Source of the DNA: Fibrobacter succinogenes
GTDB lineage: Bacteria > Fibrobacterota > Fibrobacteria > Fibrobacterales > Fibrobacteraceae
Direction: 5' to 3'
Assembly (NCBI GenBank): GCA_902762795.1
Contig: CACWPM010000026.1
Span: 1 to 64,000 of the forward strand
DNA length: 64,000 nt
The position numbers and the translations under genes were made by a program. Shown in pieces: positions 1 to 41,940 of the stretch. Numbering within the stretch: position 1 is the first letter of the stretch; every line of letters starts with the position of its first letter. The notes under the pieces are model-generated. The model saw only the letters and a list, made by a program, of their open reading frames with translations, ran no database searches and was not told where the DNA came from.

Positions 1-1
1 C

Positions 2-903: not shown

Positions 904-946
904 GCTTCCGCGAAAGTCTAACGACTTCGTCCAAGCCCAAGGCTTT

Positions 947-983
947 AAAAAAGACTTCGAGCAAATGCTCGAGGTCTTTTTTT
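947..983 (+). terminator. Rho-independent terminator after the carboxyltransferase gene
   Basis: A-rich stem 947-963 pairs with 966-983 across a 2-base loop; one G-T wobble; the 3' arm ends in a run of seven T. It lies 44 bases after the stop at 903. Confidence 0.9.
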
Positions 984-1010
984 GTACGTAACGTAAATCA
1001 AAAACGCAGA

Positions 1011-1038
1011 AAGGGTTTCAAGAAATCTCGAAACCCTT
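1011..1038. repeat. Inverted repeat, AAGGGTTTC / GAAACCCTT
   Basis: Perfect 9-base arms 1011-1019 and 1030-1038. Inner bases also pair in part. There is no T-run on either side, so it is not a clear terminator. It lies between the terminator and the 3' end of the convergent minus-strand gene. Confidence 0.6.
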
Positions 1039-1091
1039 ATCAAGGATCTATATGAATAAAGGACAATCTATGTCAAAAAGGCTAAAGGGCA

Positions 1092-1859: not shown

Positions 1860-1926
1860 TTTTTCCCTACTTATTTGTTTTTTCGCCAATAATATATCTT
1901 TATTCATTTATAGGAGCAAGAGGGCG

Positions 1927-5717: not shown

Positions 5718-5812
5718 AGGATTTTCCTTTGTATAGATTATTGAGAATAAACAGGCTTATTCAGCCGTAACGATTTAGCGAAGGATGTCGGAAAAGATAT
5801 AATTAAGTATAT

Positions 5813-5840
5813 AAGAAAACGCCCTGATAAAACCAAGGCG
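5813..5840 (-). terminator. Probable terminator after the sensor kinase gene
   Basis: On the minus strand CGCCTTG (5840-5834) pairs with CAGGGCG (5826-5820), one G-T wobble, then TTTTCTT. It lies 54 bases beyond the kinase stop. A second hairpin of C and G runs (5865-5882, CCCCC/GGGGG) lies closer to the kinase but has no T-run. Confidence 0.55.
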
Positions 5841-5893
5841 GTATATAAACTACAATATTTTTTCCCCCATGTAAAGGGGGGGGTGTTAAATTT

Positions 5894-7117
5894 TTATGGA
5901 TTTTCTTTTTTCAAGAAGATTGTCAAGTCGCTAATATACACATCATCGACAATATTCACAGAATACTCATAAGCCCCAGAATAAATCAAATCCAATCTTT
6001 TCTCAAACGTCGCAAGTCCAAGCCCACCATTCTTTCGGCTCGATTTCCTCGGGAAATTCGAATTCTCGGAATGAAAACGTAAAACATTTCCTTCCTGCGT
6101 GATTGTTACATGGGCGAAACTTTTTCCTTTGGGATTCACGCAATGCTTCATCGCATTTTCCATCAAGGGCATCATCAATAACGGTTCTATCATTACATTT
6201 GGATTTTCAAGTTTTATGTTAAATACAAAGTCAAAATCATCATTCAAGCGGAGCTTTTCCAAATCGGCATATTTCTGCAAAATACCTACGTCCTCTTGCA
6301 ACGAGATATACTTATCCTTGACTTGATACAGCATAACTCTCAGCAATTGCGAAAGTTTGTTCATGGAACTTTCAGCTCGTTTCGAATCAATCTGAATCAA
6401 CGCCGAAATGTTGTTCAAAGTATTAAAGAGAAAATGCGGGCTCAACTGGTTTTTCAAAAAATCCAATTCATATTGAAGGCCCATACGTTTCTGCTCGCGA
6501 AGAATGAACGCACGGATAATTTGGCGGACCATCAAATGATAAAATACACAAAGCACACAAACAAGGCTCACCAAAATCACAAAAGTCAAAACGGAACCAA
6601 AACCCAAATGCCCTTTAAGAGACGAAAAACAATAATCCTGAAAAAAAGATAAAACGCCATCACTCGGAGAACGCTCTATAATGAAAAAAGTCACCTCACG
6701 AATAAAAAGAGCGGCAAAAACCAAAATAGAATTGCTTATAAAATAAAATGCATAACGTTTTTTAAAAACAAATGACGGAACAAGATATTTTTGGTTCAAA
6801 AAGAATATAAACAACGTACATAACAAAGGAAAATAGAATGCGATAAGACCTTTTATATTAACGCTAATACTCGAATAACTTGACGGGTCTAAAATCAGGA
6901 CTAGCGGGAATATGATTATGAACAACCAAATAAAGAGCGCCGGAACAAAAAGCGGGATCGGGAACTGGATAAGTTCACGTTCGTCCTGCAACAGCTTACG
7001 CACCTTCATCTCATTGCGTTCAAAGTCCATTTCTTGCAAAACTGCAAGTTTATTTCGAGTTCTCTGGATAAAACCGATACGGTTTTCTGCGCTATTTATA
7101 GAAGAATTGTCATTCAT
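5894..7117 (-). CDS. LytS/YehU-type sensor histidine kinase, orphan
   Basis: 407 residues. About four membrane segments lie between residues 52 and 200. A HisKA_7TM-free kinase core of the LytS type (His_kinase family PF06580) follows: the phospho-accepting His228 in QLSPHFLFNTLNN, an N-box PLMENAMKH near 315-325, and a G-box GGLGLATFEKRL near 370-380. This family normally phosphorylates a LytTR response regulator, but no such gene is next to it: the upstream neighbour is divergent (sigma factor) and the downstream one is the secreted-protein pair. The input signal is not apparent, as there is no large extracellular domain. Family call is firm; the pathway is unknown. Confidence 0.88.
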   Translation of the reverse strand: MNDNSSINSAENRIGFIQRTRNKLAVLQEMDFERNEMKVRKLLQDERELIQFPIPLFVPALFIWLFIIIFPLVLILDPSSYSSISVNIKGLIAFYFPLLCTLFIFFLNQKYLVPSFVFKKRYAFYFISNSILVFAALFIREVTFFIIERSPSDGVLSFFQDYCFSSLKGHLGFGSVLTFVILVSLVCVLCVFYHLMVRQIIRAFILREQKRMGLQYELDFLKNQLSPHFLFNTLNNISALIQIDSKRAESSMNKLSQLLRVMLYQVKDKYISLQEDVGILQKYADLEKLRLNDDFDFVFNIKLENPNVMIEPLLMMPLMENAMKHCVNPKGKSFAHVTITQEGNVLRFHSENSNFPRKSSRKNGGLGLATFEKRLDLIYSGAYEYSVNIVDDVYISDLTIFLKKENP

Positions 7118-7305
7118 AGCAAAAATTTAGTCAAAAAAACATGCTCAATATCACAATTTTGAGCGTTCATGACAATTTCATGACAAAAATCACGATTTTT
7201 TTTAACAAAAACTCAATTTAACTTTTGCACGCAGCATTCTAAGTGATGACACAAGGCATTCGATCCGGAGGTAAATTTGAATACGTAAAAAATAAGGAGG
7301 TTACC

Positions 7306-8157
7306 ATGAAAGCCCTTAACAATCGAGATCAGAAAGATATTTACATGCAATACTTGAACGATATTTCCCGTTATCCGTTACTTACAAGAGAACAGGAAAC
7401 TGTATTGCTCCAGAAATCCGCAGAGGGCAGCAAGGCCGCCTTGGATATGTTGGTCAACTCCAATTTGCGTTTCGTTGTCAACATCGCAAACCTTTACAAA
7501 GGCCGTGGCCTCGACATCATGGAACTCATCAATGAAGGGAACATGGGGCTTATCGAAGCAGCACGTCGTTTTGACCGCTCCCAGAAAATCAAGTTTATCA
7601 GCTACGCCGTGTGGTGGATTCGCCAGAACATCACCCGCGCTCTCGCCGAAAAAGGCCGCATGATCCGCATCAGCGCCGAAAAAGAACTGATGTTACGCCG
7701 TTTCGCCCGCCATGCCAAGGATTCCCACCAGGTTATTGGAGGAACGTTCACCATCAACACACAAAATCTCGAAGGCCTTTCCAAGTACAAGGCTGAAGAA
7801 ATCGAAAAGATCCTGATGATGGGCAGCACGGCATCTTCACTCGACGCACCGGTAAACGACGATGGCGACGCAACGCTTGGCGATACGATTTCCGATACAC
7901 AGAACCGCACCGACGAACTTGCCGATATGAACAACCGTACAGAAGTCTTCGACAAGGTGATGGACAAGAACCTTTCCAAGCAGGAAAAAGAAATCATCAA
8001 GCTCTATTACGGTTTCAAGATGGATTCCGACCTGAACTTGAAAGAAATCGCTCCGATGGTGGGTCTTTCCAAGGAACGCGTCCGCCAGCTCAAGGAAAAC
8101 GCATTGAACAAGCTCCGCGATGCCGAAGTCGAACGCCTCCTCTGCGAAGCCGCTTAA
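7306..8157 (+). CDS. rpoD: RNA polymerase sigma-70 factor, short primary type (RpoD-like)
   Basis: 283 residues from the ATG at 7306, which has a textbook AAGGAGG at 7294-7300; the frame is open from 7243 but that ATG has no ribosome site. It carries region 1.2 (DIYMQYLNDISRYPLLTREQE), region 2 (NLRFVVNIANLYKGRGLDIMELINEGNMGLIEAARRFD, and KFISYAVWWIRQNI that meets the -10 element), region 3 and region 4 (EIAPMVGLSKERVRQLKENALNKLR). There is no region 1.1, as in the short primary sigma factors of the Bacteroidota-Fibrobacterota lineage. The promoters seen elsewhere in this window (TTGACG-17-TAATAT) fit such a factor. Whether it is the primary or a group 2 factor cannot be settled from this window. 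Confidence 0.88.
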   Translation: MKALNNRDQKDIYMQYLNDISRYPLLTREQETVLLQKSAEGSKAALDMLVNSNLRFVVNIANLYKGRGLDIMELINEGNMGLIEAARRFDRSQKIKFISYAVWWIRQNITRALAEKGRMIRISAEKELMLRRFARHAKDSHQVIGGTFTINTQNLEGLSKYKAEEIEKILMMGSTASSLDAPVNDDGDATLGDTISDTQNRTDELADMNNRTEVFDKVMDKNLSKQEKEIIKLYYGFKMDSDLNLKEIAPMVGLSKERVRQLKENALNKLRDAEVERLLCEAA

Positions 8158-8202
8158 TATTAAAAGATTTTTGCTCCAAACAAGTTTCATAACTCTCCTT
8201 CC

Positions 8203-8236
8203 ATAAAAAAAACCGGCTATTCATAGTCGGTTTTTC
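8203..8236 (+). terminator. Rho-independent terminator after the sigma factor gene
   Basis: AAAAACCGGCTA (8208-8219) pairs with TAGTCGGTTTTT (8224-8235) over a 4-base loop, one G-T wobble, with A-run before and T-run after. Confidence 0.92.
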
Positions 8237-8280
8237 CTTATAAGGTGGTGATTTTTTATAGGAAATTGTATTTTTAACGC

Positions 8281-10065
8281 ATGATGTTCAAATTTTTTAG
8301 TATCCGCTCTGTATTTATGGCCTCGCTGTCCGCGCTTTGCATCGCGAACGCTGCTACCGACAAGAAAACTCCTCCCGGAGATTTTTACGACGAAGTTTCA
8401 CGATTGAACAAGGTTCTATCCGAAGTCAACCGCAAATATGTTGAAAACGTCAATCCGACAGAACTTACTGACGCCGCCATCAATGGCATCAGAAATATTC
8501 TGGACCCGCATACAACCGTATTCGCCCCCAAGGACTACGAAAGCCTGCGCGTATCCATGGAAGGCAAGTTCGGTGGCGTAGGCATCACCATCAGCCTCCG
8601 CGACAACATCCTCACGGTGATTTCGCCGCTTTCCGGCACGCCGGCTTTCAAGCTAGGCATCCGTGCCGGAGACCGCATCCGCAAAATCGATGGCAAGGAA
8701 ACAAAAGGACTTTCGCTCGATGACGCCGTCAACAAGTTGCGCGGCAAGATTGGCACGGATGTGACGGTCGCGATTGAACGCGAAGGCGTTCCGGACCTCA
8801 TGGACTTTACTATTACGAGAGCTGAAATCATCGTCCATGCCGTTCCCTATTACGGCATGGTGGCACCGGATATCGGCTACATCAAGCTTGCAACCTTTAG
8901 CGACAAGACGACAAGCGATGTAGAAAACGCCATTCGAGGGCTCCAGAAACAGGGCATGAAGAAACTCATCCTCGACATGCGCTACAATCCAGGTGGACTT
9001 TTAAACCAGGCCATTGAAATCAGCGAACTTTTCCTGAAACCGGGCAACGTGATTGTCAGCACGCGTGGACGCACACAGAAAACAGAAAGCGCCTCCCGCA
9101 GAAACCCGATGCTCAAGGCGGATGTGCCTATGGTCGTCCTCGTGAACCAGGGATCCGCAAGCGCCGCTGAAATTGTCTCCGGAGCGCTGCAGGACTGGGA
9201 CCGCGCCTTGATCGTCGGCAAGACCTCATTCGGTAAAGGTTCCGTACAGACAATTTTCCCGCTCGACAACCAAGGAAACGCACTCAAGCTCACGACGGCA
9301 TTCTACTATCTTCCCTTCGGACGTTGCATCAACAAACCCGAGAACGGCATCAAGGGACTTACACTCCAAGACGAAGATTATGATGACGAAGAAAAGGAAG
9401 CAGCCAAGACGGACTCCGTAAAAGCAGATACGGCAAAGCGCGACACGTTCTACACGAACAACGGACGCATGATGTTTGGCGGCGGCGGTATTACGCCGGA
9501 TGTCGACGTGGAACTCGATCCGATGCCGTGGGTTGTCCAAGTGCAGGAACGCATGGCGATGTACTTCAAGTTCGCCGTGAAGATTCGTCCAAGCCTCGAA
9601 AAGGCAGGAGTCAAGGTGACCCCCGAATGGGTTGTACCAGACACACTCTTCTCACAGTTCAAGGCTTTCTGCAAAAAAGACACGAACTTCATGAAAGTGA
9701 AAAGCAACGCTCTTGTCGGCGTGGACCAGCTTGAAAAGAGCATCATCCGCGAACAGAATTACATGGGCGACAGCGCAAAGACCATTTCGGATTCGAATCT
9801 CGTCAAGAGAATCAACGAAATGCGCAAGGCTCTTGAAGATAACCGCGATGCCCAGTTCGAAGCCAACAAGGACTACATCAAGGACGGCATCAAGCGCGAG
9901 CTCTTAACGGCAATCGTGAACGACTCCGTCAGCACCGCTTTTTCGCTCAAGCGCGACAAGCAACTGAACGAAGCAATCAAATACCTGAGCGACATGCAGC
10001 TCTTCAAGAAGTCTATCAGCGCTCCGCCAAAACAAAAGAAGAATGTTGCAAAGCCAAAGAAATAA
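8281..10065 (+). CDS. Carboxyl-terminal processing protease, S41 family, with PDZ domain
   Basis: 594 residues with a signal peptide (cleavage near residue 24, ANA). An N-terminal helical part leads to a PDZ domain (about 90-180, KFGGVGITISLRDN, GIRAGDRIRKIDG), then the S41 core with the catalytic serine in NQGSASAAEIV (292-294) and the lysine in GKTSFGKGSVQ (Lys319). The C-terminal part beyond 400 is charged and ends in a lysine-rich tail. Such periplasmic enzymes clip C-terminal ends of envelope proteins. The ATG at 8281 is used; a second ATG follows at once and no strong ribosome site is visible. It leads a same-strand block with mlaE, dciA-like, gyrB and polyprenyl synthase. Confidence 0.92.
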   Translation: MMFKFFSIRSVFMASLSALCIANAATDKKTPPGDFYDEVSRLNKVLSEVNRKYVENVNPTELTDAAINGIRNILDPHTTVFAPKDYESLRVSMEGKFGGVGITISLRDNILTVISPLSGTPAFKLGIRAGDRIRKIDGKETKGLSLDDAVNKLRGKIGTDVTVAIEREGVPDLMDFTITRAEIIVHAVPYYGMVAPDIGYIKLATFSDKTTSDVENAIRGLQKQGMKKLILDMRYNPGGLLNQAIEISELFLKPGNVIVSTRGRTQKTESASRRNPMLKADVPMVVLVNQGSASAAEIVSGALQDWDRALIVGKTSFGKGSVQTIFPLDNQGNALKLTTAFYYLPFGRCINKPENGIKGLTLQDEDYDDEEKEAAKTDSVKADTAKRDTFYTNNGRMMFGGGGITPDVDVELDPMPWVVQVQERMAMYFKFAVKIRPSLEKAGVKVTPEWVVPDTLFSQFKAFCKKDTNFMKVKSNALVGVDQLEKSIIREQNYMGDSAKTISDSNLVKRINEMRKALEDNRDAQFEANKDYIKDGIKRELLTAIVNDSVSTAFSLKRDKQLNEAIKYLSDMQLFKKSISAPPKQKKNVAKPKK

Positions 10066-10074
10066 CGGTTCAAT

Positions 10075-10860
10075 TTGATTTCGTTAATAAACAAAATGGT
10101 TGAAGGTCTAGGACGTGTCGTCCGACGATTTTTGAACAAGGTTGTAGGTTACATCGTGTTCATCTGGGAATTGTTCAAGAACATTCCCGGAGCCTTCACC
10201 AATTTGCACACGACAGTAGAACAAATGCACCATGTGGGTATCACGAGTATTCCCGTGGTGTTCGCCGCATCGCTTGCAACAGGCGCCATCATGTCATGGC
10301 AGCTAGCCTACCAATTCGGCGACATGATTCCCATGATGTTTGTCGGCATGGCCGTTGGTAAATCCGTGATGGTGGAACTTTGCCCGATTCTTACCGCAAT
10401 GGTTCTCGCCGGGCGAATTGGCGCTTCGATGTGCTCGGAACTTGGAACGATGGCTGTTACCGAGCAGCTTGACGCATACAAAGTATTAGGTTTAAACCCT
10501 TATAAATATTTACTGGCACCAAGACTTATAGCAACCGTCATTATGCTTCCGGTACTGACAATTTTGAGCATCTTCATCGGCATTGTCGGTGGTTACGAAG
10601 TCGCACACTTGTACAAGGAAGTTTCGTTCTCGGTGTTCTTTTACGGCGTACGCATGTTCTACCAGAACTGGGACCTGGTCGTTGGCCTCATCAAGGCTAC
10701 CCTTTACGGATTTTTCATTTCGAGTTACGCTTGCTTCTTCGGTTTCTTTACGCACAGCGGTGCAGAAGGCGTGGGCAAGAGCACCAAGGCGACAGTCGTT
10801 GCCGGCATGACAAGCATCTTGATTGGCGGGTTCACCCTTTCCAAACTACTGCTTGTTTAA
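10075..10860 (+). CDS. mlaE: MlaE/YrbE-type ABC transporter permease
   Basis: 261 residues, five to six membrane segments. Typical family stretches are present: an N-terminal amphipathic lead, FAASLATGAIMSWQLAYQFG, CPILTAMVLAGRIGASMCSELGTMAVTEQLDAYKVLG and GAEGVGKSTKATVVAGMTSIL. MlaE permeases move phospholipids between the two membranes with MlaF (ATPase) and MlaD (MCE protein); neither is beside it here. The frame starts with TTG at 10075; the first ATG is at 10096 and could be the true start, giving 254 residues. It follows the S41 protease by 9 bases. Confidence 0.9.
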   Translation: MISLINKMVEGLGRVVRRFLNKVVGYIVFIWELFKNIPGAFTNLHTTVEQMHHVGITSIPVVFAASLATGAIMSWQLAYQFGDMIPMMFVGMAVGKSVMVELCPILTAMVLAGRIGASMCSELGTMAVTEQLDAYKVLGLNPYKYLLAPRLIATVIMLPVLTILSIFIGIVGGYEVAHLYKEVSFSVFFYGVRMFYQNWDLVVGLIKATLYGFFISSYACFFGFFTHSGAEGVGKSTKATVVAGMTSILIGGFTLSKLLLV

Positions 10861-10878
10861 CGTGATAAATTTGTACAA

Positions 10879-11202
10879 ATGTTTGAGACCAAACGAAAAA
10901 GTAACAAGAGTTATACAGGGAATAAACTTCAGGACGTCAGCGTCCTTTTAGAGCATGTACTTTTAAAGAACCACATTTCCGAAGATATCCATTTCAAGAC
11001 GATATCCGAGCGCTTCTCGGAAGTGGTCGGCCCCCTACTTGTAAACCATGTCAAGCCCATAGAAATCAATAAAAACATACTGGTGCTACATGTTGCAAAT
11101 TCGTCGCTCAAATTCGAATTGAACATCCAAAAAAAAGCTATTATTGCTAAGTGTAATACCCTTTTAGGGAGACCGTTTATTCAAGGAATACGTTTCGGCT
11201 AA
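10879..11202 (+). CDS. DUF721 / DciA-like protein upstream of gyrB
   Basis: 107 residues, about the usual length of the DUF721 family. The body (LLEHVLLKNHISEDIHFKTISERFSEVVGPLLVNHVKPIEINKNILVLHVANSSLKFELNIQKKAIIAKCNTLLG) matches the family pattern of W/FxxVVG...H..P......L.V.V.SS....L......I...N. Some members (DciA) load the replicative helicase. The position directly before gyrB, 21 bases away, is the classic setting of this family in many bacteria. Confidence 0.8.
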   Translation: MFETKRKSNKSYTGNKLQDVSVLLEHVLLKNHISEDIHFKTISERFSEVVGPLLVNHVKPIEINKNILVLHVANSSLKFELNIQKKAIIAKCNTLLGRPFIQGIRFG

Positions 11203-13164
<1,962 letters not shown>

Positions 13165-14169
13165 ATGAGTCCGACGAAAGCCGACTTCAAAGCCGTTTTA
13201 TCCCAAGCTCGCGACTTGGTGAAAATGGAACTGGACAAAACGGAACAAGTCATTATGCAGGTGGCAAAAAACGCGCCCGCAGGGATTAGTGACCGCCTTG
13301 TAACGCTGTTCAGCCGCAAAGGCAAACGCATCCGATCAACGCTCCTTTGCTTGCTCGCAAACTGCGGAACGCAAAAGCCAGACATCAATCGCGTGGCTCA
13401 CGCCTGCGCTGCCGTGGAGCTGCTGCACCTCGCAAGTTTGGTCCACGATGACATCATCGACGGGACCGATGTCCGCCGCGGACAAAAAACGGCCCACCGA
13501 GAATGGGGTACACAAGTTGCTGTTTTGATTGGCGACTATGTACTTTCGCAGTCCATGCGCTGTGTCATTGACGAAGAAGCCCGCAACGTACCGCTAATCA
13601 TTTCCGACGCAGCAGACAAGCTCATCATCGGCGAAATTCAGGAACTCGACCATTGCGGTGACATGGGACTTTCCCGTAAAGCCTACAACGAAATCATCGA
13701 CGGAAAGACGGCTGCACTCATTGATGCGGCAGCTCGTCTCGGTGGCATCATGGCAGGCTTTGACCAACCTATGGTTGATGAATGTGCCAAGATGGGAACG
13801 CACTTCGGGATAGCATTCCAGATTATCGACGACCTGCTCGATTACGGATACGGTTCCGTGAATATGGACAAAGCGAAATTCACCGACCTTTCGAACGGGC
13901 TTATCACACTCCCGTTGCTTTACTACTTCGAAGATTGCACCGCCGAAGAACGCAGCGAAATGGAAGGCTTTATCGCGAAAGCGTCTGCAGAAGGGATTCC
14001 CGAAAAAATTCAGGACCGCCTGATGGCAAGAAAGAGCTTTGCAAAAGCGAAAGCCGAAGCCCAGGAACACTTGGAACAAGCGCTTGCCATTGCCGACAAG
14101 TTCCCGAAGAGCAACTTTACCGAAGAAATCGTCGCCATGTTCTCTAGCATGAGCGAGCGCGGGAACTAA
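13165..14169 (+). CDS. Trans-type polyprenyl diphosphate synthase
   Basis: 334 residues. The first aspartate-rich motif is LVHDDIIDGTDVRRGQ (DDIID), the second FQIIDDLLDYG (DDLLD); GKRIRSTLL and ELLHLASL flank the first. It joins isopentenyl diphosphate units into a long chain (heptaprenyl or octaprenyl) for the quinone side chain or a related lipid; the small residues before the first motif suggest a long product, but the length cannot be told. Its ATG touches the gyrB stop codon directly, so it is probably translated by coupling. Confidence 0.92.
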   Translation: MSPTKADFKAVLSQARDLVKMELDKTEQVIMQVAKNAPAGISDRLVTLFSRKGKRIRSTLLCLLANCGTQKPDINRVAHACAAVELLHLASLVHDDIIDGTDVRRGQKTAHREWGTQVAVLIGDYVLSQSMRCVIDEEARNVPLIISDAADKLIIGEIQELDHCGDMGLSRKAYNEIIDGKTAALIDAAARLGGIMAGFDQPMVDECAKMGTHFGIAFQIIDDLLDYGYGSVNMDKAKFTDLSNGLITLPLLYYFEDCTAEERSEMEGFIAKASAEGIPEKIQDRLMARKSFAKAKAEAQEHLEQALAIADKFPKSNFTEEIVAMFSSMSERGN

Positions 14170-14203
14170 GGCGGCTTCGCCGCAGTAGGCAGAGGTTACC
14201 TTT

Positions 14204-14235
14204 GCCCACATAAGTGCTTCAGCACTTATGTGGGC
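14204..14235. repeat. Perfect inverted repeat in the gap after the polyprenyl synthase gene
   Basis: GCCCACATAAGTGCT (14204-14218) faces AGCACTTATGTGGGC (14221-14235), 15-base arms with a 2-base centre. A second small palindrome (CCACCT/AGGTGG) follows at about 14240-14253. No T-run, so not a simple terminator. Confidence 0.8.
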
Positions 14236-14282
14236 ATGGCCACCTTTAGGTGGGTGATTAGTCATTGATTATTAACGTTATA

Positions 14283-14311
14283 AAAAACGCGGTCACAACG
14301 GTCGCGTTTTT
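14283..14311 (+). terminator. Terminator for the gyrB - polyprenyl synthase transcript
   Basis: AAAAACGCG (14283-14291) pairs with CGCGTTTTT (14303-14311) over an 11-base loop. The A and T runs are symmetric, so it could also act for the minus strand. Confidence 0.8.
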
Positions 14312-14315
14312 ATTT

Positions 14316-14343
14316 CTAATTCCTAACTCCTAATTACTAATGA
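14316..14343. repeat. Period-7 tandem repeat (unit like CTAATTC, four units)
   Basis: Four consecutive heptamers CTAATTC, CTAACTC, CTAATTA, CTAATGA. It is one of several intergenic heptamer tracts in the window. Confidence 0.75.
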
Positions 14344-14367
14344 GAATAATACTTCGTATTATTCTCA
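14341..14367. repeat. Perfect inverted repeat TGAGAATAATAC / GTATTATTCTCA
   Basis: 12-base arms around TTC. A further small palindrome TAACGC/GCGTTA lies at about 14449-14464. Apart from these the 14170-14502 gap holds no gene. Confidence 0.8.
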
Positions 14368-14502
14368 ACTGCTAGGCTCGGAAAGTCTCGAAAAGCGGAC
14401 GAAGCAGTCAAAAATTATTTGACTATTTCTGAGCTCAAGAGATAACGCTTTAGCGTTAAATAGGCTTGCAAGCAATCCTGCTTCGCTCGCCTTACGCAGT
14501 TG

Positions 14503-15435
14503 TTATTTCTTGCGCATCCAGACGAGCAAGAATGCAAACACGGACAAGAAGCATATAACGATGATAATCCAGAACGCGATTGGCGAACCGACCGTGGCAT
14601 CGCCGTTCATACCAAACGGGAGCTTCACGTTCATGCCGAACAAGCTTGCGAAGAAAGTCGGGAGCGAAATAGAAATCGTCACGATAGTGAGGTTCTTCAT
14701 CAACTGGTTCACGTTGTTGTTGATCACGCTTGCGCGGGCATCCATCATGGATGTCAAAATGTTGGCGTAGATGTTCGCCTGTTGCAGGCTCTGACCATTT
14801 TCGATCTGGATATCTTCAAGGAGTTCGCGTTCGGCTTCGGTCCAGTTGAGGCTACGCCCAAGCTGCAACTTGCGCAAGAGCGTATCGTTGCTGTTCAAGG
14901 CGCTCACGTAGTAAATCAAGCCCTTGTTCAAGCTGAACATAGAGAGAAGGTACTTGTTTTCCATCGACGTGTTGAGGCGCTGTTCCAAGTCGTCATTGAT
15001 GCGGTTGATGATCTTCAAGTGTTCATTGAAATGCGCGATGGCAAAACTCAATACACGGAGCACAAACGTATTCAAGCTGTCGATTTTCGAGAACTTGCGC
15101 TCATCCATCACCGGGATGTCGCTGTCCGTCAAAAGCAAAACCCAATCCTTGAAAATGAATATGCCAAAAGATTCCACACGGAACTGGAAATTATCTTCGG
15201 CAGAATAATTCTTGGGCTTTTTAAACACGATGGTCGTAAAATCATCGTCGTATTCGATACGGGAAAGCTCGTCAGAGTCAAATGCGGAGGCAATCGTATG
15301 TTCAGTAATTTCGTACTCTTTGACAAGAACGCTGCGCTGTTCCTGGCTTAAAGAACCCATCATAACGATGTCAGCAGCTTCTTCGTTCGGAGCTACTGAG
15401 AGACGACCGGATTCGATTTTGTAATACTTGAGCAT
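14503..15435 (-). CDS. corA: CorA-type magnesium transporter
   Basis: 310 residues from the ATG at 15435, which is preceded by AAGGGGGCGG; the frame is open to 15510 but that part overlaps repeat-like intergenic sequence. A large N-terminal cytoplasmic domain with long helices is followed by two C-terminal membrane helices. The signature GMN lies in FFASLFGMNVKLPFGMN, at the end of the first helix, and a basic tail WMRKK ends the protein. CorA forms a pentamer that admits Mg2+ (and Co2+, Ni2+). It stands alone on this strand. Confidence 0.93.
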   Translation of the reverse strand: MLKYYKIESGRLSVAPNEEAADIVMMGSLSQEQRSVLVKEYEITEHTIASAFDSDELSRIEYDDDFTTIVFKKPKNYSAEDNFQFRVESFGIFIFKDWVLLLTDSDIPVMDERKFSKIDSLNTFVLRVLSFAIAHFNEHLKIINRINDDLEQRLNTSMENKYLLSMFSLNKGLIYYVSALNSNDTLLRKLQLGRSLNWTEAERELLEDIQIENGQSLQQANIYANILTSMMDARASVINNNVNQLMKNLTIVTISISLPTFFASLFGMNVKLPFGMNGDATVGSPIAFWIIIVICFLSVFAFLLVWMRKK

Positions 15436-20315: not shown

Positions 20316-22289
20316 CTAAATTTTCCACAGCGGACGCGACCTGCGGTCATCGACAAGCTTGTGAATCTCCGAGACCAATCCAGAATTCGCAAGCAAGTCC
20401 TCGACACTGCACGGCATGCGGTACGTCCAATTTTTGCCACCAACGGTTCCCGGAATGTTGACACGCTCTTCCTTCGGATCGCATGCAGAAAGCACCGACG
20501 AAAGTGCAAAGTAATCCTGAATCGGCGGAATGCAGAACAAACTATTCGCAGAGAACACATGCGCGAGAATGTCCCGCACCACAGGCGGAGAAAGCTTTTC
20601 AGGAGCAACACCCGGCAATCCTGCATGAGACCAGTAGAAACCTCTGTCGAAATCACTCTCTTCCCAGAGGCCACGCAAAGTCGAAGTGTCATGACAACTC
20701 GTCGTGCAAACGGAGAGACGCGGGTATTCATCCATACTGTAATACGGAGAATAAGGCACATTCCAGTTACGAGCCCAGCGTTCAATACGCAGCGACATGA
20801 TGTCGAGTTTCTTGAGCACGGTAGGTACGCACGGCGGCACGGCGCCAAGGTCTTCGGCGCAAACAAGCATATCCGTTTCATTTGCCAGTACAGACAAAAG
20901 TTTCATCGCGTTCTGCTCCCATAGAGCATTTTGCGCCTGTTCGTTCTGGCCAATCAGTTCATGAAGTTTATCTTGTTCGTTCTGCGGGAGCGTAAAGAGC
21001 ACAGGCTGGTTGTACCAGTACCAATACGGATAAAATGTATTTTCGTCTCCTGTCGGAATGAATACGCGATTCCAATAAACACGGAGCATGGAATCCTTGA
21101 TTTCCTGCGGTTCGTCAAGAGCCAGGATAGCGCGTTCCGACAAGAGCTCCGGCTTGAGGATAAAGCGGTCCACGGTCCCGGGCAAATTTTCGAAGTACTT
21201 GGAAACAAGCCATTCCGTCTCTGTACCAAGGAACTCACGCAACTGGTCCACAGAGAAGTTCGGCCGGCGCAAATATTCAAGCGATTCGCGGCAGAAACCC
21301 GCATTGCGCAGCACATCCCACGTGAGCGGGATCGACGGCATGAAGCGCCCCAAAATGCCAGTCGTTTCCGTTTCGGGGATTGCCCAGATGCGGAAGAAGC
21401 CGAGCACATGGTCAATGCGATAAGCATGATAAAACTTGCTCGCCTGAGCCAAACGTCGACGCCACCAGCCAAAATCATCGGCTTCAAGCACGTCCCAGCG
21501 GTAAGTCGGGAAGCCCCAGTTCTGGCCACCGTAGCTGAACATGTCTGGAGGCGCCCCCGCACGGTCTGCAAGGGAGAAGTACTTGCGGTCAAACCACACA
21601 TCGGCGCTGTCTTCGTTGATGAGAATAGGCACATCGCCTTTCAAGCGCAGTCCGAGCTTGGAGACCTCGTTCACAGCAGCGGTAAACTGCCCTTCGGCGG
21701 TGTACTGCATCCAAGCCTGGAACAGCACATCCTTGTAGTTTTTCATCCAAAGTTTATCTATATCGGCAGCGGAAGGATTCTGGAATTTTTTCCAATCCTT
21801 CCAACTAGCTTCACCGTTCTGAGCCTTGAGCGTACAATAGACGCAATAGGATTTGACCCAGGCGTTCTTGTCAATCCATGCCAGGAGTTTCTTAGAAGAC
21901 TTGAGAACATCGTAGCAGGAATCAAAAATTTTACGCAGGATAGCGCGCTTCCAAGTAGTAATGCGGTAGTAGTCTACGCGCTCGATGCCAGCAAACTGTT
22001 CGCACGCCTTTTCAATTTCATGTTCGAACGAAGAAGCGCCTTCGACAGACTGCACGTTGATGAATACTGGGTTCAAGGCAAAAGCACTGCGGGCACTGTA
22101 AGGACTCGGCTCGGACCCTGTATCGTTTACAGGCAAAAGCTGAATGATATTGAAACCACAGAACTTGGACCATTGGGCAAAAGGAATCAAGTCCAAAAAT
22201 TCGCCAATGCCAATACTGTGTTTGCTATGAAGACTGAAAAGAGGAACGGCAACGCCGGTTTGGAAAGAAGTTAAATCACCATATCGCAT
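20316..22289 (-). CDS. malQ: 4-alpha-glucanotransferase, GH77 amylomaltase
   Basis: 657 residues. GH77 marks are clear: GVAVPLFSLHSKHSIGIGEF at the start, LPVNDTG and SPYSARSAFALNPVF, GDVPILINEDSADVW, the nucleophile Asp in YRIDHVLGFFRIW, the acid/base Glu in CAEDLGAVPPCV, and the stabilising Asp in SCHDTSTLRGLWEE. It moves maltosyl or longer units between alpha-1,4 chains. It is longer than the E. coli-like minimum only through insertions in the middle, as in the Bacteroidota/plant DPE2-like core, but lacks N-terminal CBM20 domains. It works with the GH13 enzyme next door. Codon usage is like the core genes. Confidence 0.94.
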   Translation of the reverse strand: MRYGDLTSFQTGVAVPLFSLHSKHSIGIGEFLDLIPFAQWSKFCGFNIIQLLPVNDTGSEPSPYSARSAFALNPVFINVQSVEGASSFEHEIEKACEQFAGIERVDYYRITTWKRAILRKIFDSCYDVLKSSKKLLAWIDKNAWVKSYCVYCTLKAQNGEASWKDWKKFQNPSAADIDKLWMKNYKDVLFQAWMQYTAEGQFTAAVNEVSKLGLRLKGDVPILINEDSADVWFDRKYFSLADRAGAPPDMFSYGGQNWGFPTYRWDVLEADDFGWWRRRLAQASKFYHAYRIDHVLGFFRIWAIPETETTGILGRFMPSIPLTWDVLRNAGFCRESLEYLRRPNFSVDQLREFLGTETEWLVSKYFENLPGTVDRFILKPELLSERAILALDEPQEIKDSMLRVYWNRVFIPTGDENTFYPYWYWYNQPVLFTLPQNEQDKLHELIGQNEQAQNALWEQNAMKLLSVLANETDMLVCAEDLGAVPPCVPTVLKKLDIMSLRIERWARNWNVPYSPYYSMDEYPRLSVCTTSCHDTSTLRGLWEESDFDRGFYWSHAGLPGVAPEKLSPPVVRDILAHVFSANSLFCIPPIQDYFALSSVLSACDPKEERVNIPGTVGGKNWTYRMPCSVEDLLANSGLVSEIHKLVDDRRSRPLWKI

Positions 22290-22342: not shown

Positions 22343-22368
22343 AAAAAAAGGCTCGGAAACCCGAGACC
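22343..22368 (-). terminator. Terminator of small peptide gene 1
   Basis: On the minus strand CTCGG-GTTT-CCGAG (22365-22352) with flanking GG/CC, then CCTTTTTTT. It lies 32 bases past the peptide stop. Confidence 0.85.
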
Positions 22369-22399: not shown

Positions 22400-22462
22400 T
22401 TAAGCACGCTTACTGTACTTCTTAAAGCTCTTGATCAAGAGGGCGGCGAGAATGCAATACAT
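22400..22462 (-). CDS. 20-residue hydrophobic-basic peptide, copy 1
   Basis: The peptide is MYCILAALLIKSFKKYSKRA: a hydrophobic half (residues 2-10) and a basic half (11-20), the build of a short membrane-active or membrane-anchored peptide. It has its own full transcription unit on the minus strand: -35 TTGACG (22517-22512), 17-base spacer, -10 TAATAT (22494-22489), ribosome site AAGGAG (22473-22468) five bases before the ATG, and a terminator. The second copy at 23206-23268 differs at five codons, four of them synonymous and one Ser to Ala, which argues that the protein sequence is kept. I do not recognise the family. Candidates are a type I toxin-like peptide, a membrane-protein regulator or a signal peptide; none is shown by the sequence. 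Confidence 0.8.
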   Translation of the reverse strand: MYCILAALLIKSFKKYSKRA

Positions 22463-22488
22463 TTAGACTCCTTGTTTTGACGGCGCCA

Positions 22489-22517
22489 ATATTAACAAAT
22501 TTTTACTACCACGTCAA
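22489..22517 (-). promoter_or_regulatory. Sigma-70 promoter of small peptide gene 1
   Basis: TTGACG, 17 bases, TAATAT on the minus strand. The expected start of transcription is near 22482, giving a leader of about 20 bases with GGCGCC and the ribosome site, as in copy 2. Confidence 0.8.
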
Positions 22518-22627
22518 GGGATTTTAGTATATATTTCGGCAACTTTTTAGACAAATCGTCCATAACAGTATAGAGGCCACCTCTAGACGCCAACTTTCCC
22601 CACATCCTTTTTTTATTTTGTAAAGGT

Positions 22628-23125
22628 ATGTTTTCTCTGAAAAAAATTTTATTTCTTACAAGCTTTTTGTTCGAATTCACATTTGCTGAAGATATTGAAA
22701 AGCTCTACGATTCTGATTACCATATATACAAAACAGAAATAGATTCTACAGAAATCTACGAACGCATGATTCTTCAAGAACAGAGTAATGCATCCACAAC
22801 AGTAGGTCAAATTCTACTCGGTTTTGGGATCCCCTTAACTATCGGAGGAGGCATTGCAATTTACAAGACAGCAACGTTTGATGACGATGAACAATTCAAT
22901 ACCGCAGCATTCGGCATTCCTCTAGCAATCATAGGCGTTCCAATGATACTTTACGGCATCTACGACATTGCAAAATCCACAAGTCACGCACAAAAGTACA
23001 AAGAACTAAAAAAGCGATATTTCTACTACAAATACAAAAAGCAAAAACAGACTGCTCAAATTTTTATAATACCACTAATCAGCATACATTCCCAAGCAGG
23101 CCTCGGCATGCTTCTAAAATTCTAA
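22628..23125 (+). CDS. Small exported or membrane protein, unknown function
   Basis: 165 residues. It starts with a signal-like stretch (MFSLKKILFLTSFLFEFTFAEDIE), followed by a charged part with tyrosines (LYDSDYHIYKTEIDSTEIYERM), two hydrophobic segments of membrane length (about 58-82, VGQILLGFGIPLTIGGGIAIY; 92-113, TAAFGIPLAIIGVPMILYGIYDI), a lysine/tyrosine-rich helix (KYKELKKRYFYYKYKKQKQ) and a hydrophobic end with a final Phe. An AAAGG ribosome site precedes the ATG; a TAGAGG-CCA-CCTCTA palindrome lies at 22571-22585 upstream. It is convergent with small peptide gene 2 and lies between the two peptide copies. The two-helix glycine-rich part resembles that of many small envelope proteins; no family is recognised. 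Confidence 0.7.
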   Translation: MFSLKKILFLTSFLFEFTFAEDIEKLYDSDYHIYKTEIDSTEIYERMILQEQSNASTTVGQILLGFGIPLTIGGGIAIYKTATFDDDEQFNTAAFGIPLAIIGVPMILYGIYDIAKSTSHAQKYKELKKRYFYYKYKKQKQTAQIFIIPLISIHSQAGLGMLLKF

Positions 23126-23130
23126 AACGT

Positions 23131-23164
23131 AAAAAAAAAAGCAAAGCCACGGGGAATCCGTGGC
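23131..23164 (-). terminator. Terminator of small peptide gene 2
   Basis: On the minus strand GCCACGG-ATTCC-CCGTGGC (23164-23146), then TTTGC and ten T. It starts 42 bases past the peptide stop and ends 6 bases from the 3' end of the convergent gene. Confidence 0.9.
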
Positions 23165-23205
23165 ATCGCGTTCAGTTTGGTTGGAGAGAGAAAAAATCTT
23201 TTCGA

Positions 23206-23268
23206 TTATGCGCGCTTGGCGTATTTCTTAAAGCTCTTGATCAAGAGGGCGGCGAGAATGCAGTACAT
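23206..23268 (-). CDS. 20-residue hydrophobic-basic peptide, copy 2
   Basis: The peptide is MYCILAALLIKSFKKYAKRA, one residue different from copy 1 (Ala17 for Ser17). Codons 2, 15, 19 and 20 differ only by synonymous changes. Ribosome site AAGGAG (23279-23274), promoter TTGAAA-17-TATCAT (23324-23296) and a strong terminator complete the unit. The leader keeps GGCGCCGTCAAAA with copy 1, while the sequence after the stop codon is unrelated, so conservation follows the promoter-to-stop unit. The 14-base palindrome CTCTTGATCAAGAG lies in codons 8-12 of both copies. Confidence 0.8.
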   Translation of the reverse strand: MYCILAALLIKSFKKYAKRA

Positions 23269-23295
23269 TTAGACTCCTTGTTTTTGACGGCGCCA

Positions 23296-23324
23296 ATGAT
23301 AACAATTTTTTACTAACGTTTCAA
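23296..23324 (-). promoter_or_regulatory. Sigma-70 promoter of small peptide gene 2
   Basis: TTGAAA, 17 bases, TATCAT on the minus strand, placed as in copy 1; the spacers also align (TTAGTAAAAAATTGT versus GTAGTAAAAATTTGT). Confidence 0.78.
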
Positions 23325-23502: not shown

Positions 23503-24711
23503 ATGAAACGTTTTTTGATTTTATGTCTCAGCCTAACAGCATTTGCAAACGCAACGCATAAGATAACGATAAAAGAGGACCGCGTCGAAGCCGGCCAGAT
23601 ATTCCATTTGCAACTGCAAATTCCATTAAAAGAACTGCCTAAAAATAGAAGTACACCGCAGCTTAAAATCCGCAACGACTTTAGACTTCTTGGACTCGAC
23701 AGTGCAAAAAATCCGATGACATACGAGGCATTGACGACGACTCGTGTCGGTCACAGGATAACCGTCGATACAGCGCAAGTCTATACATTCCAGGTGAAAG
23801 CTCCGCAAAAAACAGGACAATTCGACCTCGGGTCGCTAAGTTGGAAAGTCAAAGGCAAGCAAAGCATCATCAGCGACAACTACCAAGTAACCGTATCCCG
23901 CCCTTACAGCGCCCCAGCCTTAGAAGCAAGCATGACAACAAGCAAGCAAAGAGTTTATGTAGGCGAACAATTCGGCATTAACTTCGAGTTGCATTCATAC
24001 GAGAACTGCATAAGCGTCTTGGGTTCTAACAGTGTTGACTTCGGCAATAATTTCACCTCTTACCGCAACGACAATCTTAAAACGGAAAGCAAAGACTTCG
24101 GATATCATGAAAGTCTGACAACGATTCCTTTTGCATGGTGGCTCATCCCGAACAAAAGCGGAACACTAGAAATCCCGCCCGTCAACTTCACATACTCATC
24201 AATGGGCGAACCAAAGACTGTTAAAGAAGAAAAACAATTGAATGGCCATACGTTCACTAGCACCCACACCTCACAGGAACTCGTCGAAAAAGAAGCCTTT
24301 ACCGCCCCCATCTCCATTACGGTCCTCCCGCTCCCGACTAGAGGCATGCCTACGGATTTTTCAGGAATGGTCGGCTCTTACAAATTCAAAGCCTCTTTCG
24401 ACCGTACAAAAATTAAAATCGACGAAGCCATTACACTAATCGTCAACATCAGCGGCGACGGCGCAATAGGAAACATCACAAATCCGAAGCTCCCCGACCT
24501 AAGCGATTTCCGTTGGGAACTCCCCGAAATAAACATTAACGAAAGAATTGAAGACACAAAAGTTATCACCACCAAAGACATCAAAATGGCGCTCTACCCG
24601 AGAAAAGCGGGAACCTTCAAAATCCCCGCCATTACATATTCCTGGTTCAATCCAGGCAAGAAGAAATACGAAACAGCATCCGCAGGCCCATGGACTATCG
24701 AAGTCGAATAG
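23503..24711 (+). CDS. BatD-like protein without membrane anchor, paralogue 1
   Basis: 402 residues: signal peptide (MKRFLILCLSLTAFANA) and the repeated Ig-like strand blocks of the BatD (oxygen-tolerance, PF13584) family: VEAGQIFHLQLQI, KQRVYVGEQFGINFEL, IKIDEAITLIVNISGDG and PAITYSWFNPGKKKYETAS. It ends at TIEVE, exactly where batD-3 goes on into its anchor region, so it lacks the membrane helix and C-terminal domain and should be a free periplasmic protein or be held by a partner. It is the first of three tandem paralogues. Bat proteins work with MoxR ATPases and VWA proteins in the envelope; those partners are not here. Confidence 0.82.
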   Translation: MKRFLILCLSLTAFANATHKITIKEDRVEAGQIFHLQLQIPLKELPKNRSTPQLKIRNDFRLLGLDSAKNPMTYEALTTTRVGHRITVDTAQVYTFQVKAPQKTGQFDLGSLSWKVKGKQSIISDNYQVTVSRPYSAPALEASMTTSKQRVYVGEQFGINFELHSYENCISVLGSNSVDFGNNFTSYRNDNLKTESKDFGYHESLTTIPFAWWLIPNKSGTLEIPPVNFTYSSMGEPKTVKEEKQLNGHTFTSTHTSQELVEKEAFTAPISITVLPLPTRGMPTDFSGMVGSYKFKASFDRTKIKIDEAITLIVNISGDGAIGNITNPKLPDLSDFRWELPEININERIEDTKVITTKDIKMALYPRKAGTFKIPAITYSWFNPGKKKYETASAGPWTIEVE

Positions 24712-24722
24712 GATCTAACAAC

Positions 24723-25925
24723 ATGAAACGATTTTTCCTTTTATTTTTCAGTCTCGCCGCATTTGTAAACGCAGCGCCCTATACGAACATCGTCAATGAC
24801 GTCATTCAAGCCGAAGAAACATTCATTTACGAGCTCATCGTCCCGCACACGGATCTTCCCAAAAACAGAAGCGCGCTCCGACTGGAAACTCGCAACGACT
24901 TCAAGCTTCTTAAAATCGACAGTACCGACGAATTAAGGCCTCTAGACAAAAACGACTCTTTTACCATGTTTTTCGGCGGCCCCAAAGCTCAAAAAACGCG
25001 CATTTACTCATTCCATATCAAAGCTCCGAAAAAATTAGGAAAGCAGGATCTCGGATCGCTCTACTGGAACGCCGACGGAAAAACAACGACTATCGAAAAA
25101 AACATTTCGGTTTACGTGCATCGCCCCTACAGTAAAGACGCTCTCGATGTAAGTCTCGTCCCCAGCAAAACAACCGTTTACGAAGGAGAAACGTTCAACA
25201 TTACGCTCCATTTCCATTTGTACGATCATTTCCACCTCCCCTTGCAACAACCCGTCATGGACACAAGCAGCAATTTTAACATCAGTCTCATTGAAAAAAC
25301 AAAAACAGACTACAAGCCCGTCGAAGGCACCAACAACGAACTCGAAGCGTCCATGTTATTTGCTTGGCTCAGTCCGACCAAGAGCGGAAAACTCGCAATT
25401 CCGCCCATTAAGGTCAACTATACACAGAGCACTAAAGCTGATGTCGTCAAGACAAAAACACTAAATAGCACATCTTATGAAATCAAAAATGATACCCTTT
25501 CAAAGGTAGCCATAGCCGCCCCGCAATCTATAACGGTTATTCCGCTCCCAGCCGACAACAAGCCCTCAAACTTTTCGGGGATGGTCGGAGAGTTCAGTTT
25601 CGATGCAAACTTTGACCATACACACCTGAAAATCGGTGACGCCCTCACGCTCAACATAAACATCAGCGGAGATGTCCCTTCAGGATTTATCGCCAACCCG
25701 AAAATTCCCGACTTCATCGGCTTCCGCTGGGAAATTCCTGATATAACCATCGTCAAGAAACAGGAAAATTCCAAAACCATCACATCCAAAAATATCAAGG
25801 TGATTCTTTATCCTAAGGAAAAGAAGGTCTTCGAAATCCCCGCCATTACATATTCCTGGTTCAATCCAGGCAAGAAAAAATACGAAACAGCATCCGCAGG
25901 CCCGTGGACCATCGAAGTCGAATAA
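24723..25925 (+). CDS. BatD-like protein without membrane anchor, paralogue 2
   Basis: 400 residues from the ATG at 24723, 11 bases after the stop of paralogue 1; the frame is open from 24690 but MKRFFLLFFSLAAFVNA at 24723 is the signal peptide that matches the other two. Domain order is as in paralogue 1 (AEETFIYELIVP, TTVYEGETFNITLHFHLYDH, LKIGDALTLNINISGD, PAITYSWFNPGKKKYETAS). It also ends at TIEVE. It has no own promoter block and so is probably co-transcribed with paralogue 1. It has diverged most in the middle, around the FHLPLQQPVMDTSSNF stretch. Confidence 0.82.
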   Translation: MKRFFLLFFSLAAFVNAAPYTNIVNDVIQAEETFIYELIVPHTDLPKNRSALRLETRNDFKLLKIDSTDELRPLDKNDSFTMFFGGPKAQKTRIYSFHIKAPKKLGKQDLGSLYWNADGKTTTIEKNISVYVHRPYSKDALDVSLVPSKTTVYEGETFNITLHFHLYDHFHLPLQQPVMDTSSNFNISLIEKTKTDYKPVEGTNNELEASMLFAWLSPTKSGKLAIPPIKVNYTQSTKADVVKTKTLNSTSYEIKNDTLSKVAIAAPQSITVIPLPADNKPSNFSGMVGEFSFDANFDHTHLKIGDALTLNINISGDVPSGFIANPKIPDFIGFRWEIPDITIVKKQENSKTITSKNIKVILYPKEKKVFEIPAITYSWFNPGKKKYETASAGPWTIEVE

Positions 25926-25956
25926 AAATCCGACCATAGCCCCCATCTCGTCCGCT

Positions 25957-25971
25957 AAAATTTGGTAAATT
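25957..25971 (+). promoter_or_regulatory. Conserved promoter-like block of batD-3
   Basis: Exact copy of the AAAATTTGGTAAATT block before batD-1, seven bases before the ATG at 25979. It suggests that full-length batD-3 and batE are also transcribed on their own. Confidence 0.45.
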
Positions 25972-25978
25972 ATGGGGC

Positions 25979-27796
25979 ATGAAACGATTTTTGCTTTTAT
26001 GTCTCAGTTTAACAGCATTTGTAGGCGCAAAGCCCACTCTTCAAGTCGATAGCGACCGCATCGAAGCGGGTCAGACATTCAATTTGCAGTTCATCATCCC
26101 AATTCAGGAACTGCCACAGAACAGAGGCGCGCTCCGCCTCGAAACCCGCAACAACTTCAAGTTCCTCGGGCTCGACAGTGCCGATCAGGTGATGCGCCCG
26201 GACATGGAAGACATTTTCAGTTCATTCTTCGGCGGAGGCGGAAGAGCTTACAAGGCCCGTGTCTATTCGTTCAAGGTTAAAGCCCCAAAAAAGACAGGTA
26301 CGCAAGACCTCGGAAAGCTAATATGGATGATTGGCGGCGAAGCAAGCACCATCAGCAACGAAATTCCGATAACCGTGCAGCGATCCTACAACGATGAAGC
26401 GCTTGCCGCAAGCCTTACCCCAAGCAAGAAGACCGTTTATGAAGGCGAGCAATTCAGCGTCACCCTTAGCCTCCACACTTTCGAGCATTTCCAGGGCGGC
26501 CTCCAGGCCACCGACATGAGCACCGGCAACGATTTCATCGTCCACCGCAACGATCTTTCGAATTTGGATTTTAAACCGGTCGAAGGCGCCCGCCGCGAAA
26601 TGAAGGCATCCGCCAAATACGCATGGTTAAGCCCGACCAAGAGCGGCGCGCTCCAAATTCCGTCATTCAAGTTCAAGTACACCAAGCTCGGAGAACCCAA
26701 GGTCGTCGAAGAAAAGAAGCAGATGGGCGCCATGTCGTTCTCGAGCCGAAGCGTCAAGCAGGAATCCATCGAAACGGAAACCTCCACCACCCCGCTTTCC
26801 ATCACCGTTCTCCCGCTCCCGACCGAAGGCAAGCCCGAAGATTTCTCGGGAATGGTCGGCAACTACAGCTTTAGCGCGAACTTCGACCGCACAAACCTCA
26901 AGGTCGGCGAAGCGTTAACGCTCGCGATTAACATCAAGGGCGACGGCACTCCGGGTACGATTGCCGAACCGAAGCTCCCCGCCTTTAGCGATTTCCGCTC
27001 GGTGCCCCCCGAAAACAGCATCGACAAGAAAGTAAAGGGCAACAAGGTTATCACCTCGAAGGATATCAAGGTATTCCTCTACCCGAAGAAAAAGGGGACC
27101 TTCGAAATTCCGGCCATTACATATTCCTGGTTCAACCCAGCCAAAAAGAAATACGAAACCGCATCGGCAGGCCCGTGGACTATCGAAGTTGAAAAAGGCG
27201 ACGCCCCAGCAGAACCTATTTACCAGGCCCCTGTCGCAACAACACCCGGTTCTTCGACCCCAGCTGTGCAAAAGCAGGAAATCGAATTCCTCGGCAGCGA
27301 CATCCGATTCATCCACCCGATCAAGGAAGTTTCCGAATCTAAAGCCCCGCACAGGAGCGCCTTGTTCTGGCTTCTTTTCCTCGCCGCAATTCCGTTCTAC
27401 CTGATAGCAAACTTCGCCATTACAAGAAAGCGCAAGCGCAACAGCAACACGGCGCTCGTCCGCAAGGGCAAGGCAAACAAGCTGCTCAAGGAAAAATTCG
27501 CGAACGCCCGCGCGGCCCTCAAGAGTGGAGACGGCAAAGGCTTCTACGCCGCCCTCGAAAACGGCCTTATCGATTACCTCAGCAATTTGACGAATGTCGA
27601 ATTCAAGGGCATGACCCGCCCGCAAATGAAGCAGGAACTTGCCAAGCGAGGAGTCAAGAGCGAAACGATTGAAGCCATCAACAGCTGGCTTGAAAAATGC
27701 TCGTTCGTGCGTTTTGCTCCGGTCACAGCAACGACCGAAGAACAGTCCCAAATGCTCGCGGATGTCGAAAAACTCTGCGAGGCGCTGAAGCTATAA
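25979..27796 (+). CDS. batD: BatD, full length with membrane anchor
   Basis: 605 residues. Signal peptide (MKRFLLLCLSLTAFVGA), the three Ig-like blocks, then after TIEVE a linker rich in Pro/Ala/Thr, one membrane helix (about 461-480, ALFWLLFLAAIPFYLIANFAI), a basic stretch (TRKRKRNS) and a cytosolic helical domain of about 110 residues (KANKLLKEKFANARAALKSGDGKGFYAALENGLIDYLSNLTN...). This is the normal BatD build. An FGGGG-like insert (FFGGGGRAYKARVYSF) is typical. It is followed 10 bases later by batE, so the pair is likely one unit of a Bat complex. Confidence 0.88.
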   Translation: MKRFLLLCLSLTAFVGAKPTLQVDSDRIEAGQTFNLQFIIPIQELPQNRGALRLETRNNFKFLGLDSADQVMRPDMEDIFSSFFGGGGRAYKARVYSFKVKAPKKTGTQDLGKLIWMIGGEASTISNEIPITVQRSYNDEALAASLTPSKKTVYEGEQFSVTLSLHTFEHFQGGLQATDMSTGNDFIVHRNDLSNLDFKPVEGARREMKASAKYAWLSPTKSGALQIPSFKFKYTKLGEPKVVEEKKQMGAMSFSSRSVKQESIETETSTTPLSITVLPLPTEGKPEDFSGMVGNYSFSANFDRTNLKVGEALTLAINIKGDGTPGTIAEPKLPAFSDFRSVPPENSIDKKVKGNKVITSKDIKVFLYPKKKGTFEIPAITYSWFNPAKKKYETASAGPWTIEVEKGDAPAEPIYQAPVATTPGSSTPAVQKQEIEFLGSDIRFIHPIKEVSESKAPHRSALFWLLFLAAIPFYLIANFAITRKRKRNSNTALVRKGKANKLLKEKFANARAALKSGDGKGFYAALENGLIDYLSNLTNVEFKGMTRPQMKQELAKRGVKSETIEAINSWLEKCSFVRFAPVTATTEEQSQMLADVEKLCEALKL

Positions 27797-41700: not shown

Positions 41701-41849
41701 AATGTAGCGTCAACCTTGCTTGGATATGACCGAGACTAGCATTTGGTAATTGAACGAAGTGAAAGTACAATGACAAAAGAGGCTAGGATTAAGGAGTAGA
41801 GGTTTTTCGTGTATATTCATAAACATCTAAACGAACGCAAACATATCAT

Positions 41850-41867
41850 CCCGGACCCCGTTCCGGG
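41850..41867. repeat. Inverted repeat CCCGGA / TCCGGG
   Basis: 6-base arms, 6-base centre, in a gap that also holds a heptamer pair (TCTCGTC x2, about 41882-41895) and GGCCTT...AAGGCC. The upstream part of the S41 frame runs through this DNA, which argues that it is not coding. Confidence 0.5.
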
Positions 41868-41940
41868 CTTTCCTTTTCATTCTCTCGTCTCTCGTCTTTG
41901 GCCTTTCACTTCGTTCAAGGCCCAACCATTCGGCTCGATC

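Follow-up and report, generated by a model that had tools for sequence, protein, structure and literature searches.

The 64,000-nucleotide stretch of Fibrobacter succinogenes DNA analysed here (the window) carries two nearly identical reading frames of only 20 codons, which raises the question of whether so short a frame encodes a protein and what this protein would do. Both frames are located on the minus strand. Copy 1, which is proximal to batD and occupies the ancestral position, spans 23206..23268 and encodes MYCILAALLIKSFKKYAKRA followed by TAA. The malQ-proximal copy 2 spans 22400..22462 and encodes MYCILAALLIKSFKKYSKRA followed by TAA (in reading direction 23268-23206 and 22462-22400, stop codons included). 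An earlier note on this DNA had described MYCILAALLIKSFKKYSKRA together with a form carrying Ala17, and the codon comparison agreed with it. Five codons differ between copy 2 and copy 1 (2 TAT/TAC, 15 AAG/AAA, 17 AGT/GCC, 19 CGT/CGC and 20 GCT/GCA), which amounts to four synonymous changes and one Ser-to-Ala exchange at residue 17. Homology of the two units (88% over 122 nt) extends from the -35 element through the stop codon and no further, in agreement with the earlier description of the sequence after the stop as unrelated. A search of the window's genome revealed no third copy of the unit; besides the two units there was one 29-nt match at E 0.06. Between the twins lies a 165-aa ORF on the plus strand (22628-23125), for which we obtained a sub-threshold DUF7139 match only. 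It is 72% identical to an ORF in genome G006 (L023) and unmatched between other twins.

The likeness of the twins had been taken as a mark of selection on a tiny protein. As the twins resemble each other in promoter and leader about as much as in the ORF, their identity is by itself no proof of such selection, and a moderately recent duplication of the promoter-ORF block could explain the twins alone. Since the untranslated part is alike too, the proof of coding must come from other species. In a first search of 61 genomes (the window's own and 60 relatives) the peptide was present in 31, all of one genus. A profile search of 168 genomes of the phylum then yielded matches at E<1e-10, which we call type A, in 63 of 80 Fibrobacter genomes, 15 of which hold two copies as counted from the profile-search table. 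Among 40 distinct type A sequences of 63 nt, 18 of 19 codons are variable at the third position, and six each at the first and at the second. Along an approximate minimum spanning tree we counted 79 synonymous and 36 nonsynonymous changes, which puts the synonymous share at 69% where 32% would be expected (omega about 0.21, P 4e-16). The type A units had been collected by peptide similarity, which biases this count; the divergent type B described below is free of the bias. For type B the counts were 15 synonymous and 4 nonsynonymous changes (P 5e-5, omega 0.13). Moreover, the ORF is intact, start and stop codons included, in 58 distinct units and its length is held at 18-21 aa. These substitution patterns strongly show that the reading frame is under purifying selection across species. 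The claim of selection thus stands on the cross-species comparison and not on the likeness of the twins, and a peptide is almost certainly made from this frame.

One might also regard the unit as a small non-coding RNA with an accidental frame, given that it is short and isolated and has a strong promoter and terminator. However, the third-position pattern and the intact frame in 58 distinct units speak against this, as does the constancy of peptide length over a promoter-to-ATG distance of about 26-108 nt. A search of the units against Rfam gave no match. By codon pattern and absent Rfam match this explanation was rejected, and we consider it very improbable.

Type B, with the sequence MYCLLAYLIVKQLKSGKALI or one near to it, was found in five genomes lacking a strong type A match. 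In each of these the promoter pattern alone had one match, followed by an ORF of 20 residues. In four of the five a marginal profile match (E 0.2-0.7) at the same place had prompted the look, whereas in G025 the promoter was the only guide. Type B shares with type A the length of 20 residues, the MYC start, the ribosome site and mqnC as a neighbour. Because these loci were settled via the promoter and not via peptide similarity, this agreement represents an independent confirmation. A contig scan with type B as first query sequence confirmed three type B loci and left 40 other pattern matches unclassified. Finding a divergent type by its promoter offers a route to tiny proteins that sequence search misses.

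Taking both types together, the peptide is present in 68 of the 80 Fibrobacter genomes sampled, and none of the 88 other Fibrobacterota genomes gave a strong match in the profile search, the best having E 0.04 over ten residues. Among the genomes searched, the family is confined to the genus Fibrobacter. A search of Fibrobacterota genomes had been proposed earlier, with a lack of both ribosome occupancy and further homologues, or else frame-broken copies, as the outcomes that would speak against the peptide; homologues turned out to be abundant, with the frame intact in every one of the 58 distinct units. Twelve genomes of the genus were without a match. Four of them (G036, G116, G125 and G129) are 99% complete, so that with at least four near-complete genomes without a detectable copy the peptide is dispensable for the genus.

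The signals around the two frames in the window are of the kind that the earlier note had listed, namely promoters with 17-base spacers, AAGGAG at equal distance from the start, and terminators. The promoter of copy 2 (22489..22517, minus strand) reads TTGACG-N17-TAATAT and that of copy 1 (23296..23324, minus strand) TTGAAA-N17-TATCAT, both with GTAAA in the spacer and an extended -10 TG. AAGGAG is placed 5 nt before the ATG in both units (22468..22473 in copy 2 and 23274..23279 in copy 1, minus strand), and a purine-rich stretch precedes the ATG in the units inspected. Downstream, copy 2 ends in the intrinsic terminator CTCGGGTTTCCGAG plus a T-run (22343..22365, stem 22365-22352, minus strand), upstream of malQ (20316-22289). 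The terminator of copy 1 consists of GCCACGGATTCCCCGTGGC plus a T-run (23131..23164, stem 23164-23146, minus strand). With predicted transcripts of about 140-230 nt (one of 304), these signals show each unit to be a predicted monocistronic transcription unit of its own. Across species, TTG-N20-TANNNTTGG with exactly 17 bases between the hexamers was present in 58 of 58 distinct units, in all of which the spacer GTAAA and several flanking bases are invariant as well. Within the window a looser promoter pattern matched the two units only, compared with 0.04 matches expected, and in the window's genome the unit promoter with up to 3 mismatches was likewise found at the two units only. In other genera the pattern did not exceed the control level. 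Such a fixed spacer hints at a regulator or at a promoter of a specialised type; TANNNTTGG at -10 recalls the Bacteroidota -7 element TAnnTTTG. Leader length ranges between about 26 and 108 nt, and the terminator hairpin differs in sequence from clade to clade, so that promoter and peptide are conserved while the intervening sequence is freer. Besides, the codon preference scores of the two copies (0.91 and 0.94; 19 codons are a small sample) are higher than those of all 21 longer genes of the window that were tested (0.69-0.89). Such preferred codons in both copies are as would be expected for strongly expressed genes.

In nearly all of the loci examined, a batD homologue is transcribed divergently from the unit. 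In 17 single-copy loci a convergent mqnC follows downstream (assigned by TIGR03699 at 423 bits, just under the cut-off of 428); in most species other than that of the window with mqnC in reach, the unit sits between divergent batD and convergent mqnC. With these two orientations the unit leads no gene. No conserved downstream gene in the unit's orientation was found across the loci; malQ takes this place only in the twin clade. In the window's clade malQ lies downstream of the twins and mqnC elsewhere in the genome; such a separation was seen in the window's own genome (contig G000:C6) and in G140. The copy 2 unit is on the malQ strand, 110 nt before malQ with the terminator between, and could on this account be read as a leader peptide or attenuator for the downstream gene. 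However, copy 1 is followed by a convergent ORF or by the second unit, and in the 17 single-copy loci with convergent mqnC there is nothing to attenuate. Synteny largely refutes this role, and we therefore judge it very improbable. In a tree of MqnC, some deeper nodes of which are weakly supported, type A occurs on early and late branches, and type B groups with G011 next to the unit-less G036, G116, G126 and G129. In the latter four batD directly abuts mqnC, which leaves a clean empty site and is consistent with loss of the unit. Beside the units, three batD-like genes are arranged in tandem in the window (23503-27796), two of which were checked and match PF13584. Another tandem arrangement is located at 41809-44648, where two adjacent genes, by impression from their sequence, resemble secreted S41-type proteases. 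Carriage of the peptide as phage cargo was rejected, as the sole IMG/VR contig with the peptide pair (L151) has it in a host flank that matches the batD/malQ region of the window. This contig, from a relative of the window's species, contains, between batD and the twins, a provirus-like stretch (1-14877) with ORFs resembling an integrase and other phage genes.

The peptide always begins with MYC[IL]LA, and types A and B alike keep M1, Y2, C3, L5, A6 and K11 without exception. Its first ten residues are hydrophobic, with a mean Kyte-Doolittle value of 2.7, the second half is basic and lysine-rich, and the net charge is +5. The helical moment of residues 9-18 is 0.73-0.76 in the main type, 0.57 in an Arg-rich type A variant and 0.38 in type B; in the last two amphipathicity is weak (permutation fraction 0.21-0.24). 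Overall we favour, somewhat above even chance, a stand-alone, strongly expressed and membrane-associated peptide that acts on a specific membrane partner. Its first ten residues, hydrophobic and including the invariant Cys3, would reach into the inner membrane, although ten residues are short for a span; the remaining part, lysine-rich and amphipathic, would rest on the cytoplasmic face of this membrane. The peptide might then bind and modulate a specific membrane protein or complex, which is the less certain step. Association with the membrane is probable, whereas for a specific protein partner the chances appear about even. A specific contact is suggested because M-Y-C-[IL]-L-A is the most strictly kept part, as a contact surface would be; generic disruption of the membrane accounts for this less well. 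The duplication of the whole unit in one clade, with both copies intact, would fit an advantage of dosage or of expressing the copies separately. Of the functions guessed earlier, the small membrane regulator remains the best reading, while the type I toxin lacks an antisense signal in the scan made, and for the quorum peptide no cassette for processing or reception was seen.

The toxin deserves a closer look, since size, hydrophobicity, basic C-terminus, cysteine and tandem duplication all fit known members of type I toxin-antitoxin loci, in which a short hydrophobic peptide depolarises the membrane and is restrained by an antisense RNA. With 20 residues, the first ten of them hydrophobic, the peptide falls within the usual size and hydrophobicity range (<60 residues); IbsC has 19 aa and ShoB 26 aa, and most type I toxins have positively charged C-termini (PMC8309996). 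However, the best antisense promoter score was 7.67 compared with 7.77 in shuffles, at positions not common between units, in a scan that could miss weak or atypical promoters. Looking for antisense RNA over the unit had been recommended earlier; the sequence scan revealed no conserved antisense promoter, and filing the peptide as a type I toxin is therefore unsupported. Moreover, the genome contains no trans-encoded copy of the unit, the ribosome site is not strongly sequestered in predicted folds, and the unit appears, from its strong promoter and codon choice, to be expressed steadily at a high level. The peptide is also invariant at its N-terminus, whereas the toxicity of IbsC mostly survives N-terminal deletions (PMC8309996), a contrast that speaks for a specific contact. 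We regard a toxin as unlikely. A secreted surfactant or signalling peptide, either like phenol-soluble modulins or for quorum sensing, appears more improbable still. It would agree with a leaderless, basic peptide of 20 residues with a partly amphipathic helix and with the tandem copies in 15 genomes, but exporter, protease or receptor genes were not seen travelling along within the 1.5-kb flanks, the N-terminus is invariant throughout the genus where pherotypes would typically diverge, and in type B charge and amphipathicity are much reduced.

The transcript itself might have a second function. In a dual-function RNA like VcdRP it would encode the peptide and also pair with other mRNAs, here through a CUCUCU element in its 3' part. 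The 3' UTR of copy 1 contains the pyrimidine element TTCTCTCTCC (approximately 23182..23192, minus strand), which is kept in most single-copy units. CTCTC(TC) lies 11-30 nt beyond the stop codon and is ten times as frequent as in shuffles. When units with a copy-2-type terminator are set aside, 35 of the 43 type A units have CTCTC within 60 nt of their stop, compared with 3.6 expected in shuffles and 1 in the upstream control. The length of the predicted transcripts, with their own promoter and terminator, also resembles that of sRNAs. Nevertheless, the element is missing from copy 2, type B and eight further units, and leaders and terminators are otherwise unconserved. A dual-function RNA is thus a doubtful explanation. 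Equally tentative is a broader version, a genus-specific dual-function transcript combining the dedicated GTAAA-spacer promoter, a partner-specific membrane peptide and a CU-rich element for base pairing with the ribosome sites on other mRNAs, in which duplication would have split the roles, with copy 2 keeping the peptide and losing the element.

The peptide had no match in Pfam and NCBIfam, matched PDB sequences only at E>4, and neither it nor Fibrobacter small proteins were found in the open papers searched. The earlier statement that no described family exists holds for these sources; large smORF catalogues lay outside the search. GMSC, whose ORF prediction went down to 30 nt (PMC11364881), may contain the sequence without comment. 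Since the usual gene callers and databases set a minimum length of 30 residues or more (PMC11796252, the sORFdb paper), a protein of 20 residues is easily missed. The small protein is real, and as judged from Pfam, NCBIfam, PDB sequences and open papers it was unlisted before and constitutes a new family. It is conserved in most of Fibrobacter, a genus of major degraders of plant fibre, and one or two short genes together with natural empty-site species provide a defined target for the role of a very short membrane peptide in an under-studied phylum. The peptide matters to small-protein and rumen microbiologists, and pending a partner or phenotype it is one more orphan small membrane peptide.

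Among known systems, Ibs/Sib, ShoB/OhsC and TisB/IstR of E. coli resemble the unit in their hydrophobic peptides of 19-29 residues from own short transcripts, often with a basic C-terminus and some in tandem loci (PMC8309996). The Fibrobacter unit differs in the missing antisense signal, the invariant N-terminus and the suggested high steady expression, and sequence similarity was not shown. With VcdRP/VcdP of Vibrio cholerae it shares a short transcript, a small protein (29 residues in VcdP) and a candidate pairing element (PMC8672173). In Fibrobacter, however, this candidate is absent in copy 2 and type B. Phenol-soluble modulins are likewise leaderless peptides of about 20 residues from tandem genes, but they form a full amphipathic helix, whereas the Fibrobacter peptide has a hydrophobic block followed by a basic block, and no linked exporter was seen. 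SpoVM and other amphipathic membrane-surface peptides are comparable in being short and basic, with an amphipathic stretch and a stand-alone gene. In contrast to SpoVM, the Fibrobacter peptide has no link to sporulation, shows no evident sequence similarity and is less amphipathic in type B. A CydX-like role was rejected, as none of the 80 genomes of the genus scored above the PF01654 cut-off (cytochrome bd subunit I), for which 10 of 14 control genomes were positive. CydX, KdpF, MgtS and AcrZ are nevertheless similar in kind, being very short single-helix subunits or regulators that act on a larger membrane complex, whereas the Fibrobacter peptide, with its 20 residues, is free-standing and would be encoded outside the operon of its partner.
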